36,148 nucleotides of DNA, from assembly GCA_022508615.1 (NCBI GenBank), contig JAFLUW010000003.1, forward strand, positions 1 through 36,148, in the 5' to 3' direction. The notes beneath the pieces were generated by a model, which did not search any database, had not been told where the DNA came from, and worked only from the letters and a program-made list of their open reading frames with translations. The number at the start of each line of letters is the position of its first letter. The first letter of the stretch is position 1. Below are positions 1,807 through 32,457 of this stretch, piece by piece. The stretch comes from Prevotellaceae bacterium. Its GTDB lineage: Bacteria > Bacteroidota > Bacteroidia > Bacteroidales > Bacteroidaceae. Position numbers and translations under genes: made by a program.

Positions 1807-1869
1807 AAAACTTTCAGGGCGTTAGTTTCAACTAACGCCCTGAAAGTTTTGACTAACGCGGATTTTTCT
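1807..1869. repeat. 63-bp element E: three 21-bp units, units 1 and 2 forming a perfect 19-nt inverted repeat
   Basis: aaaactttcagggcgttagtt / tcaactaacgccctgaaagtt / ttgactaacgcggatttttct. Confidence 0.8.
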
Positions 1870-4767: not shown

Positions 4768-7377
4768 TCATTTGACGAACACTTTCTTGCCGCCTGTGAT
4801 GTAAAGTCCCTTGCCGGCAGCGCCTACGCGGCGACCCGAGAGGTCGTAGACGGCGCTTTCGGCCGCCGGTGCCGCGGTTGCCGTGCCGATGCCGGTGGTT
4901 GTTCCGCCGATGGCAAAGAGCAGTGCCGGCGCGCTGGCGTTTGTGGCCACGTAATAGGCCTTTCCGGCCGGAAGCGTAGCGGCCCTGTAGGGATAAAAGC
5001 CCACGCCGTTCTGGAAAGCCCCGCTCAGGGCGTAGGTGACGCCTGCGGGTGTCGCTTCGTCGGTGCTTACGGTGCCGAGCAGCACGTTGTTCTCGTCTTT
5101 TTCGGGGCTTTCGGTTGAGGGAACGAAGTGTCCGTAGCTGTTGTTGTCGCTATGGAGCACGACAGCCTCGCCCCTAGCCAGCGTATTGCCCTCCACAAGT
5201 TCGAGCATGAGGTAGTTGTCTTTTAGCCAGGCCGTATAAGCCTCCACGCCTTCAGGGATAGTTACGGCATAGGGCAGATAAAGCGTGGCCCACTGCCCGG
5301 CGTTGGCTCCGGAGTCGTTTGCCGGCGTCTGCAATGTCACATTATTATAGGTATAGTCGGCTTCTTCGAGCCGGAAAAGGTTGCTGTAGCCGCTTTGCCA
5401 GCACTTCGTGTCGCCCCAAGCGTTGAAAGAGCCGTTGGCAGCAAGGATGAATGTGCCGGTAGTCCCATCGTTGCGTTTAGCCAGCAGGGAAAAAGTTCCG
5501 GGTGCAGCGGTTTCGCCGTAGCTGGTCAGGGTAAAGCTGCATTGCGGGCCGGCATATTCGGCCGTCAGACCCGTGTTGCCGTTATATCCGCCCTGATGGC
5601 CGCGCCAGCAGACGTAATCGCCCTTCGTGGCACTGACAAAGATGTACTGTCCGTTTTCCAGTGCGTGGCAGACGAACGTTGCGTCGGCGTCGAGGTTCGC
5701 TGCTTCGTAGTTTTTCACGACAAGTCCTTTTTCGCTGCCTGCGAGCAGATAGCCGTCGCCCGCCTGCTGGATGTTGTGCAGGTGGTAGGCTTTGCCGTCT
5801 TCGGGCATCACGACTTCTCTGGCCGACCAATAGTTGTTCAGTGCCGTGCGGACGGCGGCAAACTTGGGATAAGCCGTTGCGTCTTCAATGGCAGCTTGCA
5901 GTGCGACGGCGGTTTCGTGCGTTGCGGCGGGATAACCCACGCGGTTCTGCGTGATTTGCGTCTGCAACGAGTTTAGATAGGTCTCGTTGTAGTCCGTGTC
6001 GAACGATTCGAAAAAGACATGGCTGCCGACATAAGTGTATTGGTTATAGAATGAAAGATTGCGCTTATCGTGGCTCGTGTGTGCCAGCCACGTGTCCACG
6101 CCTTTCAGCCGGAAGCGCAGGTTGTCGCTCGTCGGATGCTTTTCGAGCAGGAAATAAGAGAGCGACGGGTCGGGCGTATCGGCGAAAACGCAGTTGACAT
6201 CGTGCGGACTCGCGTTGGGAGCCGTCAGATACTTGCCGTTCAGGCCCTGTATGGTAAAGCCGTTGAGCCAGTCGCCCGCCATGCGGTAGACGTAGTGCCG
6301 GCTTTCGGCGGGCGAGCAGGCGTCGAGGTTGTATTGTTCCCGCCCGGTGGTTTCGGCAGAGTACCAGTAATAGTTCTTGTTGCTGACGAAGAAGCGGATG
6401 AAATAATAAAAGCTCTCCTCGTCCGTGCTCGGCGTGAAAGGCAGCTTGTTGTTGTAGGCCGTTTCGATGGTATGGGCCGTTGTGTCGTCCGTGATGAGCT
6501 GAGGATAGCCCGCAGTCAGGACGAAGACGGGCACGGCGTCGGCCGGCGCTGCGCCTACGGTCTCCGTCACGGTGCGGCTGCCGATTTCCTGGCCGTTGAG
6601 CAGGTAGGTGTAGGTGATGTCGACCGTTTCGGGGTCGATGCCGGCGTATGTGAAGTAGACGTAAGTGCCGTTGTAGGTGTCAGGCCGCTGGCTGTAGAAC
6701 GTAAGGTTGAGCGAGGAGCTGCTCGTGTGTGCCAGCCACGTGTTCGTGCCTTTCAGTCGGAAACGCATTTCGCCTCCCGCGGGATGCTCCTCGAACAAGA
6801 AAACGGAAAGCGCCTGATCGGCCTGCGTGGGCAGGGTGGCGACGGCAAAATCCTGCGGATTCGCGTTGGGAGCCGTCACATACTTGCCGTTCTTACCCTG
6901 TATGGTGAAGCCGTTGAGCCAGTCGCCCGCCATACAGAAGACGTAGTTGTCCAGCTCATCGCCCGTGGCGCCGTTGAGGTTGGTTTTCTCCTTGCCCTGC
7001 GTCTCTCCCGAGTACCAGTAGAAGATTCCGCTTCCGCTGACGTTGAAGTTGACGAAATACCAATAGGCCTTTTCCTCCGTGCTCGGCCGGAAAGGCATGA
7101 CGTCGTAGTCGTAGCTCGTAGCGATGGTGTAGCTCGTCGTGCCTGTCCCGATGGTTTCGGGATAGCCCGTGGCGTTGACAAAGCGGGGCAGGGCGTTGCG
7201 GTCGGCAGGAGCCTCGCCGGCAGTCTCGCTGACCACGCGGCTGCCGATTACCTGCCCGTCAAGCGTGTACGTATAGGTTACGCTGACGGATTCTTCCCCC
7301 CCCCCTGAGGTTTCCTGCGCCCTGAGTGCGGGGAACGCCGCTGCGGCGAGCAGCAGCGAAAAGTAAAGTTTTTTCAT
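4768..7377 (-). CDS. Secreted protein with two tandem ~215-aa repeats and a T9SS-type C-terminal sorting domain; contains a G10 tract
   Basis: 869 aa; signal peptide MKKLYFSLLLAAAAFPALRA; duplicated 'AGDWLNGFTIQG.NGKY.TAPNA' blocks; C-terminus YDLSGRRVGAAGKGLYITGGKKVFVK. Confidence 0.85.
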   Translation of the reverse strand: MKKLYFSLLLAAAAFPALRAQETSGGGEESVSVTYTYTLDGQVIGSRVVSETAGEAPADRNALPRFVNATGYPETIGTGTTSYTIATSYDYDVMPFRPSTEEKAYWYFVNFNVSGSGIFYWYSGETQGKEKTNLNGATGDELDNYVFCMAGDWLNGFTIQGKNGKYVTAPNANPQDFAVATLPTQADQALSVFLFEEHPAGGEMRFRLKGTNTWLAHTSSSSLNLTFYSQRPDTYNGTYVYFTYAGIDPETVDITYTYLLNGQEIGSRTVTETVGAAPADAVPVFVLTAGYPQLITDDTTAHTIETAYNNKLPFTPSTDEESFYYFIRFFVSNKNYYWYSAETTGREQYNLDACSPAESRHYVYRMAGDWLNGFTIQGLNGKYLTAPNASPHDVNCVFADTPDPSLSYFLLEKHPTSDNLRFRLKGVDTWLAHTSHDKRNLSFYNQYTYVGSHVFFESFDTDYNETYLNSLQTQITQNRVGYPAATHETAVALQAAIEDATAYPKFAAVRTALNNYWSAREVVMPEDGKAYHLHNIQQAGDGYLLAGSEKGLVVKNYEAANLDADATFVCHALENGQYIFVSATKGDYVCWRGHQGGYNGNTGLTAEYAGPQCSFTLTSYGETAAPGTFSLLAKRNDGTTGTFILAANGSFNAWGDTKCWQSGYSNLFRLEEADYTYNNVTLQTPANDSGANAGQWATLYLPYAVTIPEGVEAYTAWLKDNYLMLELVEGNTLARGEAVVLHSDNNSYGHFVPSTESPEKDENNVLLGTVSTDEATPAGVTYALSGAFQNGVGFYPYRAATLPAGKAYYVATNASAPALLFAIGGTTTGIGTATAAPAAESAVYDLSGRRVGAAGKGLYITGGKKVFVK
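7296..7305 (-). repeat. Homopolymeric G10 (C10 on + strand) within the coding sequence
   Basis: ggattcttCCCCCCCCCCtgagg; encodes GGG directly after the signal peptide region. Confidence 0.9.
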
Positions 7378-7596: not shown

Positions 7597-7659
7597 AAAA
7601 CTAAGCCCGTGCAAGTCGAAACTTAGTCTGAGTAAGTTGAAACTTAGTCTGAGTAAGTT
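7597..7659. repeat. 63-bp element A: three 21-bp units (two identical)
   Basis: aaaactaagcccgtgcaagtc / gaaacttagtctgagtaagtt / gaaacttagtctgagtaagtt. Confidence 0.9.
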
Positions 7660-18524: not shown

Positions 18525-21500
18525 TCAACGCCCGATGTGCAGGGTTTCGCCGGCCTCGCGGGCGCGGTATTCGGGTGCATAGAGACATTCGATTTCGGCC
18601 CGGCCGCTGCCGAAGACGCCGGCCGCGGCGGCGCGCAGCTCGTGCTCGAAGACGTGCGTGCCGGCCGGCAGAAGGTCGAAGAAGAGGTGGGTGGCGTCGT
18701 CGCACACGCTGCGCCAGGCCGCCGTGCCGCCGGCCGGCACGTGGCCCGAGCGGCTGTCGGCCGGCTCGAGCCCTGCGGGGCGGTCCAGACGCAGATGGAC
18801 GAAAGCCAGCGGCTCGCTTGTTTGCACCGTGACGCGCTCGACGAGGCGTTCGCCCCTCGTTGCGCTGTGCCGCCGTTCGAGCAGGGTGCGCCCGTCGGCC
18901 GTCTGCGGCGCGTAATAGCCGCGTGTCACGCGCATGCCCGCGCCTCCGCTGCCGAAGCTGGACGTATCGGCCTTGCGTTCAGCCGTCAGCGCGCCGCGCA
19001 GCGGACGTCCCGTTTCGTTGTTCAGCGTTAGTGGAAACTTAGTCTGAGTAAGTTCGAACTTATCCAAAGTAAGTTTGAAATAACCCTGAGTAATTAACGC
19101 CCTGTTTGTTGGCAGTTCGTTGCCGGCCGCCGTCAGGCGGACACTTCCGCCCGTTTCCGCCCGCCCGAGGGCCATCTCCGCGCCCGCAATGGCCGCCACG
19201 GCGTCGGCTGTGGCCTGCGGCGCGCCCCAATCCGTGCGCCGGCGGCTGCCGGCTATCCATGTGGCGATGCCTTCGCGCGCCGCGCTGTCGGCGGGTGCGA
19301 TTTCGGCAAAAGCTGTCAGCGCGAGGGCGTGGGCCGACACGGCGTTGCCGCTCGCAGGCGCGCGGTGTACGGCTTCGCGCCAGTACATTCCGCGGCTTTC
19401 GTCGGCGACGGCCGTTTCGCGCAGGTGCGCCAGGAGTCGCCGGGCCTTGCGCTTCTGCCCGTAGCGCCAGGCCGTGAGCGCGGCGCGGGCCTTTTCTTCC
19501 GCAGACATGCCGGTCAGCGTCGCCGGCCTCAGCGCTTCGTCGACGGCAGCGCCGGCCAGACGGTCGAGACGGGCCGGAAGCGCCAGCTCGCTGCGGCTTG
19601 CGGCGCGCGCATACAGATAGGGCAGCAACACGCCGGCCGGAAGTTTCGTCCCGCTCCCGGCACAGCGGTCGACACGGGCCAGCATGAGCGAGTCGAGAAA
19701 CGCTGCCGCCCGCCGCAACAGCGTGTCGGCCGTCGCGCCGCCGGCTTTCGGGCAGAGGGCGCGCGTTCGTCCGGCTGTTTCGACGATGCGTTGCGTCGTG
19801 GCGGCCGACGAGGCTCCGCCGGCAAACCACGGGAAGCCGCCGTCGGCGTTTTGTGCCGCGCGAAGCCTTGTCCAGGCCTCCCGGCTTGCGGCCGCCCGCA
19901 AACTGTCGTCGAGCAGTTCGGCCATAGCTTCGGCCCGCGCCGCTTCGTCGCCGGCTGCGCCCACCCAGGGCGTCGCTTCGGGCGCGATGCGCTGCAATCC
20001 GGCGTTCCGGCTCAACGCCGAGGCCAGCGCATGGCGGTTCCACGCGCCGACGGCCTCACGCAGTTCGGGCCGGCGGGCCAACAGCGCTTCGGCGGCGTGG
20101 GCGGCGAAAATGCGGGTCAGCGTCTGGTCGCAACTTTCGTGTTCAGGCCGGACCAGCGAGGGCAATGCCAGCAGCGCAGGCACCGTAAGATCCGTGCAAA
20201 GTTCAAGCGTGAGCCGCGTGTCGGCGGTGGTCAGCGGCAAGTCGAGGACTTTTTTCTCGCCGGGCCGCAGGGAGAGGGCTTCCGTGCGTAGCAGTACGGC
20301 CCGTCGTGGGAGTATGGGCAAAAAGTGCTCTTCACCGTCGGCGCCGGCCGCACATTCGGCCGTCAGTCGCAGCCCCACGCCCTCCGTGTCGCCGTCGGGC
20401 ACGGCAATGATCCATGTTACCTCGCCGCTGCCCGCCGCTGCGAGGCGAAAAGGCTGTTCCGCCTGCTCCAGACCGAAGTTCCGGCCGAGGTCTTGGCCCG
20501 TTTCCATGTCGAAAAGTTGCAAGCGTGACGTGCCCGTCAGCATCGTGTCGAGCGTGGACGTGATTTTCGCGGCGATGCAAAGCGTGTCGCCTTGGCGAAC
20601 GAAGCGCGGCAGCGCCGGAGCGAGCATCAGCGGCTTGCGCGTCTCAATTTCGAGCTCGGCCGTCCCGCAGTCGAGGCTGTCCGTGTGGGCCAGCAGCAAC
20701 AGATGCCAGCGTGTCAGCGCTTCGGGCGCCGTGAAGCGCAGCGTGCCCTGTCCCGCTTCGACGGGCAGGCCGGGAAAGAAAAAAGCCGTCTCCTGCAAGG
20801 CCCGGCGCGGGGCCGACGGTGTTCCGCCGCCGGGCGTCAGTCCTGCTCTGCCGGCTTCGGCCGCATCCTTGTCGGCCGTTGCGCCGGTCATGGTCAGCGC
20901 AGCGGCTTTGTAACGCTGTGCAGCGCTTTCCATCCCCGCCTCAAAACTGTTCTCCGCCGTTGTCGTACTGCTTCCGGAGAGGAATCTCGGATTTTTCGTC
21001 TTATATAAATAGGGGTAGAGCAGGTCGAGTCCGAAAAAATCCAGCGTTGGTCTCTCCAACTGGCTTTCCTCGCGCCATTTTCGGCTCGCAAAGCTGAAAT
21101 TTCCGCCGTCCTCTGCCGACAAAGGCGTGGAAAGTTGTCGGCGAATCCAGCTTGTCGGCTCGAGTACGAGGCTTCTGCCTGCGTGGCGGGGCGGAACGAA
21201 GCGGAAACTGTGGCGGGCGAAGCCGTCGAGCGCAGCATCGTAGAGCGTAGCCGCCACTTCGGCGCGCACGGGCCGTCCTTTGTGCGTGACGGTCAGCGTC
21301 CAGCACTCGTCGGCGCCGGGTTCGAGATACGAACGGAAGGTATTTACTTTCACATCGAGCGTGGCATGCCGGCGTCCCGCCACTTCGATCCTCCCCGAGG
21401 CTGTTGCGCGCTCGCCGGCGGCCGTCAGTATGGCTTGCCAGCAGATGCCGCGGCCGATGTCGGCCGCATCGGCCGACAAGGTCAGCGTCGCACGGCCGTT

Positions 21501-24392
21501 GCAGAAACTCTTTCGCAGCAGAGGCTGCATCTTTCCGTAGCGTTCGACGCATACGAGCAGTTCGGCGTCCGGCAAATCGGAGCGCCACACGATTTCGGTC
21601 GTTTCGCCGGGCGTAAGTTCGCCTTTCGGCGCGTGTTGCGTGAAAAAAGTCTTGCTTCCGGGCAGCGTAAGGCTGTCGGTCAGCAGCGTCAGCCGCTGCC
21701 GGGCGCACAGCGTGTCGCCTTCGACGACCGTTTCGGCCCGACAGAGATAAACACCCGGCGCCAGCGGCTGCCCGAGCGACGTACTGTCGCCCGTAGCCGT
21801 GTCGAAATCGAGCGCAAGAACCGTTTCGTTCTCCGTGTCGAAACTGTTTTCTCCGTTTTCGTAACGCAAATAGGGAAAAGCGCTGACGAAATCGTCGTAG
21901 TCGCAGCGTGCGTAGTCCGTATCGAACTGCCGGTGCGGCCAAAGCGTGCGTGGCGGCCGCTTCGTGCCCATCCGGGTCAGCGTGATTCGGCCCTTGACGG
22001 CGACAGGACGGCCGTCGGCGTTGACAGCCCGCAGCCCGATGCTACGCAAGTCTGCGGCGCGGATGCCTGACGGGGCGTCGAGCGCTAATGTCAGCCGGTT
22101 CCGGCCGGCATGAAAGGCGTGTACGGCGGTTTGCGTCTCGCCGCCGAAGTCGGTGACGGCGGCTGTAAAAAAATAGGCGGACATGAAGAACGTGCCGTCG
22201 GCCGTCAGGCTGTCTTTGTCCAGACATATGCGCACGCTGAACGCGCCGTCGGCGTCGGTCACGGCCGTTCCTTCGGCCAGCACCGTGCGCACGTCGCGCT
22301 GTCTCCCCCGTCCCGGCCGGCCGTAGGGCGCAAGTTGCTGTCGTTCCAGTTTCCACGTCACGGGAACTCCTGTCAGTGCGGGGCCGGCGAGAGCTTCGGC
22401 GCGCCCCGTCAGCGTTATGCTGTCGCCGGCGGCGTATGCGCCCTCGACAGGGGCTACCGTAACCTCGAATTTCGGCCGTTTGTAGGCTTCGACCTCGAAT
22501 ATCTGCCAGTTATGCGCGCCGGCTTCGAGCGCAAAGCGTCCCGGCAGAGCCGAAGCCGGCAGCACGAAACTGCCCGCGGCGCTTCCGAAAGCATTGGCGG
22601 TCAGCCGCATCGAGTCGAGGGCTTCGCTGCTGGCTCCGCGCAGCACAACGCACAATTCTTCGCCTGTTGCGGGGCGCGGAATGCCTGCCGAGTCGCGGGC
22701 AGCGATGAGTTTGAACGAAATTTTCTGTCCCGGCCGATAGACAGCTCTGTCGGTCAGAAATGTAACCTGCGTGCGGTCTGTCCCGGCCGCCGGTTCTGCC
22801 GTCGGAATGCAGACGACGGCGGCCGTCGCGGCGTCGTCGAGCCGCGGGAAAAGGACGACAAACTTCTTTTCGTCCTTTCCGGCCGGCAGCGCAAGGCAGC
22901 CGTCGGCGTCGGTGCGGCCTTGGGCGGGCGGCTGTCCGGGCTTTCCCGCCGGACGAAGGAGAATGTCCTCGCCGGCCAGCGGACGGCCGTCGATCGTGTC
23001 GGAAAAACGCACGCGCACCGTGTCTTCGGCTGCGCCGGGCAGGAGCGTGGCGGCCACACCGCTCACGGCGAAGAGCGCGTCGTCCGACTTGTCGCCCGAA
23101 GACAGCGTGACGCGATAGACGCCGCGGGGCAAGCGCCCCAAATCGCAGACCGTGGCGTGCGGAAGAAAGTCGTCGAAGCGGCGGAGCGTGAGTGTCTCCT
23201 CGCGCAGCAACGTGCATTTGAGAGACTGTCGCAGCGTGCGTCGCGCGCCGGCCTTGAAGGGTGCGGCAAGGGCGTCGGCCGCGGTGGCGGCGTCGAGTCG
23301 TTCGAGCGTGAGCGCGAGTTGGTGCGCGTTGCGGTGGACTACGTGCAGGGGGACGTGGTGTTCCGGACTGTTGACGGAGAAGACGCTGAGCGCGATGTCC
23401 GTGCTTTCGGTTTCGGCGAGGTCGTTGGAGAGGCCGGCTGCCCACTTGCTTTCGGGAAAGAGCGTCATGCCGGCCGTCAGCAGGGCGTGGCGGCGCACGT
23501 TGCGGGCCGAGTCGGAGTGTTCGGTCAGACTTCCGGCCCACGAAGCGGCCTGCCGCCACAAGACGGCGGCGTAGGGCGTGTCGCGATGGGCGCTTGCCAG
23601 GCCGCAGAGGCGGGCTATGCTGCCGGCCGGGGCCGAAGCGCCCGTGGCGACGCGGTGTCGTTCGAGCTGCAGCTGTGCGTCGAGCCACGCCGTCTTGTCA
23701 GCGTCGGCGGCATGGGCCCCGGCGCGCAGGCGCAGCAGGGCTTCGGCGCGCAAGGGCTGGCCGGCTTCGTCGTTGAACCACGCTGCGGCCCGCGGCGCCG
23801 CGAAGTCGACGAGCAGCGGGGCCGTCCGGTCGGTGTCGGGGCCGTTGCAGAGCAGCTCGAAGGCCGCGCGCGGCGTATGGAGCAGGGCCGAGTCGGCGCT
23901 GGCGGCCTCGTCGTAGAGCGTGTCGGCCAGTGCGAGCAGGTCGTCGCGGCTCCAGGTGTCGAAACCTTGTCCGGCCGTCCCGGCCAGCCGCGTCCGCGTC
24001 CCGAAGCCCGGCCTTTCGGCCATCTGGCGGAGAAATTCGGCCATGTAGAGGTCGAAGAGCACGCGCCCGGCCGTGCCTGCGGGCTGCTCGCGGCGCGTCC
24101 GGTCGAAGCGGGCGAGGAAATCGGCTGCGGGATGGCGGCCTGCGTCGGCGTCGTAGTCTTCGATGACAATCCGTATGCGGCCTTCGCAGACGAGGGCTTT
24201 GAGCCGTTGCAGCGGCTGCCTTTCGGCCGCCGCCTTGCGCTCTGCTTGCAACACGAGCGGCAGCGCGGCTTTCAGCCGACCCGCGGCAAGGGCGCGGTCG
24301 ATGGCTTTCCAACGGTCGCGCCCGGCCGAACGGGCCGGAAGGCTGAGGGCAAAAAGGACGGCGAGCAGACAAACGAGGCGGAGGGCTGGCAT
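18525..24392 (-). CDS. Alpha-2-macroglobulin-like (MG2-domain) giant exported protein
   Basis: Start reassigned to 24392 (MPALRLVCLLAVLFALSLPARSAG); MG2 'TFLTDRAVYRPGQKISFKLI'; 1955 aa; promoter at 24426 excludes the 24644 start. Confidence 0.87.
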   Translation of the reverse strand: MPALRLVCLLAVLFALSLPARSAGRDRWKAIDRALAAGRLKAALPLVLQAERKAAAERQPLQRLKALVCEGRIRIVIEDYDADAGRHPAADFLARFDRTRREQPAGTAGRVLFDLYMAEFLRQMAERPGFGTRTRLAGTAGQGFDTWSRDDLLALADTLYDEAASADSALLHTPRAAFELLCNGPDTDRTAPLLVDFAAPRAAAWFNDEAGQPLRAEALLRLRAGAHAADADKTAWLDAQLQLERHRVATGASAPAGSIARLCGLASAHRDTPYAAVLWRQAASWAGSLTEHSDSARNVRRHALLTAGMTLFPESKWAAGLSNDLAETESTDIALSVFSVNSPEHHVPLHVVHRNAHQLALTLERLDAATAADALAAPFKAGARRTLRQSLKCTLLREETLTLRRFDDFLPHATVCDLGRLPRGVYRVTLSSGDKSDDALFAVSGVAATLLPGAAEDTVRVRFSDTIDGRPLAGEDILLRPAGKPGQPPAQGRTDADGCLALPAGKDEKKFVVLFPRLDDAATAAVVCIPTAEPAAGTDRTQVTFLTDRAVYRPGQKISFKLIAARDSAGIPRPATGEELCVVLRGASSEALDSMRLTANAFGSAAGSFVLPASALPGRFALEAGAHNWQIFEVEAYKRPKFEVTVAPVEGAYAAGDSITLTGRAEALAGPALTGVPVTWKLERQQLAPYGRPGRGRQRDVRTVLAEGTAVTDADGAFSVRICLDKDSLTADGTFFMSAYFFTAAVTDFGGETQTAVHAFHAGRNRLTLALDAPSGIRAADLRSIGLRAVNADGRPVAVKGRITLTRMGTKRPPRTLWPHRQFDTDYARCDYDDFVSAFPYLRYENGENSFDTENETVLALDFDTATGDSTSLGQPLAPGVYLCRAETVVEGDTLCARQRLTLLTDSLTLPGSKTFFTQHAPKGELTPGETTEIVWRSDLPDAELLVCVERYGKMQPLLRKSFCNGRATLTLSADAADIGRGICWQAILTAAGERATASGRIEVAGRRHATLDVKVNTFRSYLEPGADECWTLTVTHKGRPVRAEVAATLYDAALDGFARHSFRFVPPRHAGRSLVLEPTSWIRRQLSTPLSAEDGGNFSFASRKWREESQLERPTLDFFGLDLLYPYLYKTKNPRFLSGSSTTTAENSFEAGMESAAQRYKAAALTMTGATADKDAAEAGRAGLTPGGGTPSAPRRALQETAFFFPGLPVEAGQGTLRFTAPEALTRWHLLLLAHTDSLDCGTAELEIETRKPLMLAPALPRFVRQGDTLCIAAKITSTLDTMLTGTSRLQLFDMETGQDLGRNFGLEQAEQPFRLAAAGSGEVTWIIAVPDGDTEGVGLRLTAECAAGADGEEHFLPILPRRAVLLRTEALSLRPGEKKVLDLPLTTADTRLTLELCTDLTVPALLALPSLVRPEHESCDQTLTRIFAAHAAEALLARRPELREAVGAWNRHALASALSRNAGLQRIAPEATPWVGAAGDEAARAEAMAELLDDSLRAAASREAWTRLRAAQNADGGFPWFAGGASSAATTQRIVETAGRTRALCPKAGGATADTLLRRAAAFLDSLMLARVDRCAGSGTKLPAGVLLPYLYARAASRSELALPARLDRLAGAAVDEALRPATLTGMSAEEKARAALTAWRYGQKRKARRLLAHLRETAVADESRGMYWREAVHRAPASGNAVSAHALALTAFAEIAPADSAAREGIATWIAGSRRRTDWGAPQATADAVAAIAGAEMALGRAETGGSVRLTAAGNELPTNRALITQGYFKLTLDKFELTQTKFPLTLNNETGRPLRGALTAERKADTSSFGSGGAGMRVTRGYYAPQTADGRTLLERRHSATRGERLVERVTVQTSEPLAFVHLRLDRPAGLEPADSRSGHVPAGGTAAWRSVCDDATHLFFDLLPAGTHVFEHELRAAAAGVFGSGRAEIECLYAPEYRAREAGETLHIGR
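19034..19096. repeat. 63-bp element B: three 21-bp units, in frame inside the macroglobulin gene
   Basis: gaaacttagtctgagtaagtt / cgaacttatccaaagtaagtt / tgaaataaccctgagtaatta; encodes LITQGYF-KLTLDKF-ELTQTKF. Confidence 0.9.
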
Positions 24393-24425
24393 GGCGGGCG
24401 AAACGGTTGGAAAAACGGTTGCCGG

Positions 24426-24433
24426 CAAAGGTA
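24426..24433 (-). promoter_or_regulatory. -7 box TACCTTTG of the macroglobulin-like gene
   Basis: caaaggta on + strand, 33 nt upstream of the 24392 start. Confidence 0.6.
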
Positions 24434-24735
24434 GGAAATCGCGCGCGAAGCGGCAACTGTGTGCGCAGCAAAGACCGGCGCGTAAAGAAACTTTAAGAAA
24501 CGTCTCCCCTCGGCCGGCCATGCGCGCCGAAAGCCTGCCGCGCCGGTTTCGCCGACCGGCGAAACGGAGGCTTCGGGCTGTCACCTGTGGCCATTTCTTT
24601 GGTGTATTTGCGCCGGCCGCGTCGCGCGGACGGAAATACGCCATTTTTTTGGCCTTTCGCCCTCGTCGGCGTAAACGTTTGTGTATGAGCGTTTCGTTGC
24701 CTTTTTTCGGGCTTTCGCCGGCCTGCGCTGCGCAA

Positions 24736-24819
24736 AAAAAGCCGGCTTTTCGGGCGAAAAAGCCGGCTTTTCGGGCGAAAAAGCTGGCTTTCGGGGTGAA
24801 AAAAACGCTGCGAAAGGCA
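24736..24819. repeat. 21-bp tandem repeat AAAAAGCCGGCTTTTCGGGCG, about 3 copies plus a degenerate 4th
   Basis: Units at 24736, 24757, 24778 (diverged), 24799 (weak); each holds the palindrome AAAAGCCGGCTTTT. Confidence 0.85.
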
Positions 24820-24881
24820 AAAATATCGCCGCGTTAGTTTGAAATAAGTCTGAGTAAGTTTGAACTAACGCGGCGTAAGTT
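24819..24881. repeat. 63-bp element C: three 21-bp units, units 1 and 3 inversely complementary
   Basis: aaaaatatcgccgcgttagtt / tgaaataagtctgagtaagtt / tgaactaacgcggcgtaagtt. Confidence 0.85.
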
Positions 24882-25233: not shown

Positions 25234-25425
25234 TTAGTCGTCGTTGCGGTGCAGCTGCTGCACGTAGATGGCGTGCTCTTTGGCCAAACGCTTCAATACG
25301 CTGGGTTTGTCGTATTGCTGGCGGGCGCGAAGCTGCTTCGTCACTCCGGTTTTCTCGAATTTTCTCTTGAATTTCTTGAGGGCGCGTTCGATGTTCTCGC
25401 CCTGCTGTACGGGTACTACGATCAT
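25234..25425 (-). CDS. rpsU: 30S ribosomal protein S21
   Basis: 63 aa MIVVPVQQGENIERALKKFKRKFEKTGVTKQLRARQQYDKPSVLKR. Confidence 0.97.
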   Translation of the reverse strand: MIVVPVQQGENIERALKKFKRKFEKTGVTKQLRARQQYDKPSVLKRLAKEHAIYVQQLHRNDD

Positions 25426-32290: not shown

Positions 32291-32394
32291 CGCTTTTCTT
32301 CACGAAAAGCAAACCTTGCCGGCGAATTTAACAGCTTGCTCCCTGCTGCGGCCGCCTTGCGGGCTGCAACAGGAGAACAAACGGGCCGTAAGCG

Positions 32395-32457
32395 AAAACT
32401 TACTCAGACTAAGTTTGAATTTAGTCTGAGTAAGTTGAAACTATCTCTGAGTAAGTT
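32395..32457. repeat. 63-bp element D: three 21-bp units, units 1 and 2 near-perfect inverted repeat
   Basis: aaaacttactcagactaagtt / tgaatttagtctgagtaagtt / gaaactatctctgagtaagtt. Confidence 0.9.

Follow-up and report, generated by a model that had tools for sequence, protein, structure and literature searches.

Several described systems resemble the repeats reported here. REPINs, the REP doublets of Pseudomonas and Escherichia, consist of short palindromic units with the outer ones inverted, form hairpins, occur in hundreds of extragenic copies reported to lie at random in extragenic space, and show compensatory changes and lineage-specific sequences (PMC3116915). GTAG- and CGTC-tagged super-families are named in PMC3733652, and PMC2817692 presents BIMEs as mosaic REP arrays with several palindromic units, regular spacing and alternating orientation. 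Homogenisation of hairpin arms and inversion of the spacer between them have been described as the signature of template switching (PMC8604942, PMC8794818). Here we describe repeats in a 36,148-nucleotide stretch of a Prevotellaceae genome (contig JAFLUW010000003.1 of assembly GCA_022508615.1, positions 1 to 36,148), referred to below as the window. In the literature on Bacteroidota covered by our search, which left most subscription journals outside, we found the element undescribed.

The repeated unit is 19 bp long, reads AACT N11 AGTT and is followed by a free 2-nt linker, which gives a period of 21 bp. Most copies contain three good units, sometimes with degenerate units outside them; the three-unit copies are usually flanked by TT and then by C/G-rich sequence, and the base of the stem is AT-rich. 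The genome assembly that contains the window comprises 1.87 Mb in 156 contigs and is about 86% complete; we analysed a sample of 511 kb, about a quarter of the genome, with genes called by a simple codon model, not by a standard gene finder. In this genome we counted 281 exact adjacent-unit pairs versus 0 for a reversed-pattern control, and 512 versus 4 when two mismatches were allowed. The 511 kb held 75 three-unit copies, from which we extrapolate a copy number of about 275 genome-wide. Some contigs (L024, L025, L029, L033 and L034) start or stop inside or beside an array, and at such contig ends the arrays may be breaking the assembly.

The three repeats of the window that a sequence-only reading had singled out, copies C, D and E, all belong to a single element family; the coordinates of all copies are given here without strand. 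Copy E (1809-1869) was said to hold cores that are perfect reverse complements, and this proved correct: its units 1 (1809-1827) and 2 (1830-1848) pair perfectly within an inverted repeat at 1807-1850 that has 21-bp arms and 2 nt between them, the third unit (1851-1869) is degenerate, and the RNA fold has a z-score of -9 to -10. In copy D (32397-32457) a different core was claimed to pair, and indeed AACTTACTCAGACTAAGTT pairs with AATTTAGTCTGAGTAAGTT, though with one mismatch; units 1 and 2 are complementary at 18 of 19 positions, unit 3 is related in direct sense, and a degenerate unit precedes the copy at 32376. The claim that units 1 and 3 of copy C (24821-24881) share CGCCGCGTTAGTT / AACTAACGCGGCG also held. 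This copy sits between rpsU (25234-25425, minus strand) and an alpha-2-macroglobulin-like gene (18525-24644, minus strand), and 9 of the 11 core positions are complementary between its units 1 and 3, which enclose unit 2 as the loop. Just before it, in the same gap, lies a tandem of three 21-bp units of a different sequence (AAAAAGCCGGCTTTTCGGGCG, 24736-24798). A further copy at 7599-7659, in a divergent gap, has three units, of which 2 and 3 are identical in direct orientation and unit 1 is degenerate.

The copy at 19036-19096 lies within the alpha-2-macroglobulin-like gene and is the only one of the 75 three-unit copies inside a called gene. It is in frame, and the protein there reads ...FKLTLDKFELTQTKFPLTL... 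The protein is about 5 residues longer than its relatives at the copy, and clean boundaries of an insertion could not be defined; as the relatives are nearly equal in length there, this copy seems to have replaced sequence, not to have been cleanly inserted. Elsewhere in the window, an open reading frame at 4768-7377 contains pairs of direct repeats at 6041-7293. They are 62-133 nt long, share 71-90% identity, lie about 650 bp from each other and hint at duplicated domains in the protein, for which Pfam gave no match.

The collection of copies and the covariation test that the sequence-only reading had proposed revealed an excess of complementarity between units. Units 1 and 3 were perfect reverse complements over the variable core in 25 of the 75 copies, against 2 expected, and this held both in a discovery set (12 of 40; 1.1 expected) and in an independent test set (13 of 35; 0.9 expected). 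In a gap-free alignment of 67 copies, the covariation score for this pairing was 0.213; shuffles gave 0.097 +- 0.009 and slid controls no more than 0.06, and doubly changed cells numbered 106 versus 52 +- 5 in shuffles. Position-wise, covariation was limited to the core positions of units 1 and 3 (block z = 7.6). The pairing of units 1 and 2 was weak (0.110 versus 0.085), and that of units 2 and 3 showed neither covariation in the 67-copy alignment nor an excess of complements among the 75 copies. No covariation was seen for the linkers, for the two halves of unit 2 taken together or for the outer flanks and the units outside the three. We also considered each unit as a hairpin of its own, for which covariation within the unit fell below that of the shuffles, and arms extended through the linkers or into outer units 0 and 4, for which there was none; both models were rejected. 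As a rule, then, units 1 and 3 form the pair while unit 2 forms the loop, and the pairing of units 1 and 2 in copy E is a less common arrangement.

Arm pairing was all-or-none. While 25 copies paired at all 11 core positions (2.0 expected), only 2 did so at 10 of 11 (4.1 expected) and 4 at 9 of 11 (4.7 expected). Where the arms are perfect, the copy folds into a near-continuous hairpin, as does the one at 11347-11417 of contig L035 (-41 kcal/mol). On the transcript strand, G-U and A-C mismatches were balanced, in few cells, and so gave no sign of selection at the RNA level.

The three-unit copies are intergenic or lie at contig edges (74 of 75), with at most one per gap. Their mean spacing is 5.45 kb with a coefficient of variation (CV) of 0.41; measured on gap centres the CV was 0.46, versus 0.73-0.80 for random placement in eligible gaps (3,000 shuffles, P at most 0.0003). 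Among gaps that measure 50 bp or more once the element is subtracted, those between convergent genes were occupied in 10 of 26 cases, co-directional ones in 45 of 133 and divergent ones in 12 of 34, and in the co-directional gaps the copies tend to sit nearer the stop codon of the upstream gene. A candidate flank motif, CTGAAAATCAG, was discarded, as only 6 of its 15 scored occurrences were near copies.

We then compared two sister species of the same genus, G008 and G019, which are collinear at 86% nucleotide identity. Their arrays are also evenly spaced, with CVs of 0.29 and 0.33, respectively, versus 0.70-0.82 in the null. Among conserved gaps of at least 100 bp (n = 35), both species had an array in 14, only one species had it in 5, and 16 were empty in each (Fisher P = 3e-5). 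The unit ends are TCT/AGA in both species, and pairing of units 1 and 3 dominates, at 10 of 11 positions or better in 11 of 19 arrays of G008 and 13 of 19 of G019. Over 16 orthologous arrays, identity was 56% in the flanks, 87% in the outer units, i.e. the arms, and 92% in the middle units taken in their better orientation. Eight compensatory pair changes were found across these loci, the cleanest being T-A to G-C (G008 117011 / G019 127523) and C-G to A-T (30245 / 42956). At 6 of the 16 loci the middle unit was inverted in place, and both of the clean compensatory loci carry such a flipped unit; two of the six inversions, at 75945/88797 and 112771/123303, are exact reverse complements over the middle 17 bp, between arms that are identical in the two species. 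At two further loci (G008 98264 / G019 108676 and G008 102082 / G019 112578) the outer units seem to have exchanged orientation (B'-B-A' versus A-B-B), which indicates that more than the middle unit can flip. A second and a third family of arrays (TTGCAAG..TTGCAATATATA and GTGGCAAGGCTTGCCACAAAA; G008 128389 / G019 138666, G008 39382 and 82520) have a period of 21 bp as well and conserved positions.

In other genomes of the genus there were almost no copies of the sequence found in the window's genome, yet we observed arrays of the same architecture built from other units, such as CTCAACGCGAAGAGAAAACTTT in G012 and CTACATGCCGAGGTAG in G067. The period was 21 or 22 bp in 28 of 37 intergenic tandem arrays from 22 other species of the genus, and no array was seen in the 20 kb sampled from each of G080, G032, G062 and G026. 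Beyond the two sister species themselves, their unit frame recurred among 58 genomes only in G065, as direct repeats, and in G025, at a single site. Sequence turnover is complete between most species, and in the sampled stretches the window's genome had no gaps in common with more distant species. The arrays of other species fold better than other gaps (mean z of -2.4 versus -0.8, P about 1e-6), but not in every species; the units of G066 and G065 are mainly in direct orientation with no clear hairpin, which is therefore not a universal feature. From other families of the order, 261 kb yielded two arrays of period 21/22 and, at present sampling, the element is mainly a feature of the genus. 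The idea that structure is kept while sequence changes was thus right both within the window's genome, where units 1 and 3 covary, and between species.

Similar frames were noticed in more distant assemblies. In Treponema and Spirochaetaceae (L055, L059, L070, L071, L074, L080 and L097), arrays of up to about 15 units have the same AACT...AGTT 21-bp frame with mix-and-match cores such as AACTTTTGACTCCACAGTT. Planomicrobium assemblies (L056, L058, L066, L095 and L096) contain period-21 palindromes, mostly AGTTGYAACT, with 11 almost wholly different bases between them, in the manner of a miniature repeat-spacer array. The AACT/AGTT-ended arrays of Treponema, Planomicrobium and Chitinophagaceae looked longer and mostly direct.

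Our main reading, to which we assign a probability of about 0.5, is that these arrays form a genus-wide intergenic family whose arms are renewed by template switching and which as a whole is kept by selection as an architectural site in DNA, not as a terminator. Each element has about three short dyad units in phase, with a new unit starting after 21 (or 22) bp, or two helix turns; the outer units are often mutually inverted, which allows a strand to fold back as a single long hairpin whose tip is the middle unit. Template switching between the inverted arms during replication would then be what mainly renews the perfect pairing of the outer units, homogenising the arms and flipping the middle unit. 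The flips of the middle unit and the all-or-none pairing match the published signature, which is why template switching fits the pairing best; together with the compensatory pairs they can be explained by it with no need for selection on each base pair. It leaves unexplained the persistence of the elements amid replaced flanks, their even intervals, and a period and unit number held across species; such features speak for an element that is selected as DNA. Most likely, selection would keep the whole element as an architectural site at regular intervals, either bound by a protein or forming a cruciform; the 21-bp period would place the dyads on one face of the helix, which would suit cooperative binding of a protein. 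Of the origins offered by the sequence-only reading, inversion or templated copying is therefore the better supported one for the pairing itself, whereas selection finds support for the whole element, which is evenly spaced and is retained in the same gaps while the flanks diverge.

The architectural role is putative and is drawn from spacing, phasing and retention; the even spacing could also result from a copying mechanism that avoids neighbours. More tentatively, the arrays may be evenly spaced chromosome-wide sites whose architecture and positions are conserved while their sequence is rewritten in each species, presumably along with a fast-evolving putative binding protein. If so, they would be a chromosome-organising counterpart of rapidly evolving satellite DNA and the proteins that bind it.

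A doubtful but serious alternative is that the arrays are REPIN- or BIME-like palindromes, mobile or formerly mobile, that spread within each genome, while selection or target immunity acts against close neighbours and so makes the spacing even. REPINs, too, are described with a high copy number, an intergenic location, palindromic units in inverted orientation, a hairpin, compensatory changes and species-specific sequences (PMC3116915), the complete sequence turnover between most species would agree with this, and the 5 of 35 conserved gaps that differ between the sister species mean that gain or loss occurs. However, positions are mostly shared at 86% identity, the elements are evenly and not randomly spaced, and a Y1_Tnp (RAYT-type) gene is hard to connect with them. 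The RAYT marker PF01797 was absent from the window's genome, about 86% complete, at E <= 0.001, and across the genus it occurs in a patchy manner, in 28 of 58 genomes, with 26 of them above the family cut-off; genomes that bear arrays and have no Y1_Tnp include G061 (99% complete), G018 and G015 (90-91% complete), G012, G063, G067 and G072. In the sister species, such a gene lies at least 7 kb from the nearest among the exact arrays listed, with none beside them, and we rejected mobilisation by RAYT. Selection on base pairing itself, with a cruciform or single-strand hairpin maintained by ordinary compensatory substitution between the outer units, is unlikely. It would account for the covariation across core positions and for the clean single-pair changes at 117011/127523 and 30245/42956, but stepwise compensation should leave an excess of near-perfect pairs that we do not see, and a single template switch explains the flipped middle units at both of those loci, which substitution does not. 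Moreover, the pairing of units 1 and 3 is missing from some copies and species.

The sequence-only reading had also suggested that the hairpins act on the minus strand as terminators of genes such as pnp and rpsU, being followed by T-rich tracts. For copy E the tract is there: its tail, TCTTTTCT, scores as terminator-like on the minus strand, and E itself could still terminate. For the class it is not, as at least 5 T in 8 were found on the transcript strand in only 7 of 44 co-directional copies (16%), with 8% per strand at random intergenic positions. Despite the lean of co-directional copies toward the upstream stop codon, we thus regard bidirectional intrinsic terminators, or 3'-UTR hairpins of upstream genes, as a very improbable general function; divergent gaps, which have no 3' end, are as occupied as other gaps, the TT that follows the stem gives way to C/G-rich sequence, the stem base is AT-rich, copy E is 272 bp beyond pnp and copy C 352 bp beyond rpsU, and no match to Rfam covariance models was obtained within the window at the gathering threshold. 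That the arrays are a chance or low-complexity artefact of an incomplete metagenome assembly is hardly conceivable, even for a genome in 156 contigs, given the 281 exact pairs versus 0 reversed and the many further assemblies of the genus that share the architecture.

Among known systems, intrinsic terminators share with the arrays a hairpin with A/T flanks on both sides, but differ from them in stem base, T run, which is short here, and absence from divergent gaps. Template switching, which likewise homogenises arms (here 25 copies versus 2.0 expected) and inverts the spacer between them (here at 6 of 16 orthologous loci), is a mutational process and not an element, whereas we describe a dispersed family in which the 23-nt spacer is itself a unit. 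Integron attC sites, defined by R''/R' core boxes, a cassette array and an IntI integrase, likewise put structure before sequence, but the dispersed position of the arrays between genes makes them an unlikely match. The closest known kind is REPIN/BIME. As in REPINs, inverted palindromic units with a spacer between them form a hairpin; unlike REPINs, the arrays have three units at an exact 21- or 22-bp period, their extragenic copies are evenly spaced, no RAYT was found in the window's incomplete genome, and the unit ends, AACT/AGTT here and TCT/AGA in the sister species, carry no GTAG/CGTC-type tag. From BIMEs, as PMC2817692 describes them, they differ in the fixed number of about three units, the two-turn period, the equal occupancy of divergent gaps and the even chromosomal spacing. 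The element is thus REPIN-like in some respects and should not be filed as a REPIN; its features suggest a little-known type of chromosome element and not a set of gene-end signals. The comparison of sister species amounts to a natural experiment, with structure, position and sequence uncoupled, that allows mutation by template switching to be separated from selection. If the sites organise the chromosome, it becomes possible to ask why they stay about 5 kb apart when their sequence can change freely. With even spacing and a fixed three-unit helical phasing, two properties absent from the REP-type descriptions that we compared, the arrays would add a distinct class to the bacterial interspersed palindromic repeats.
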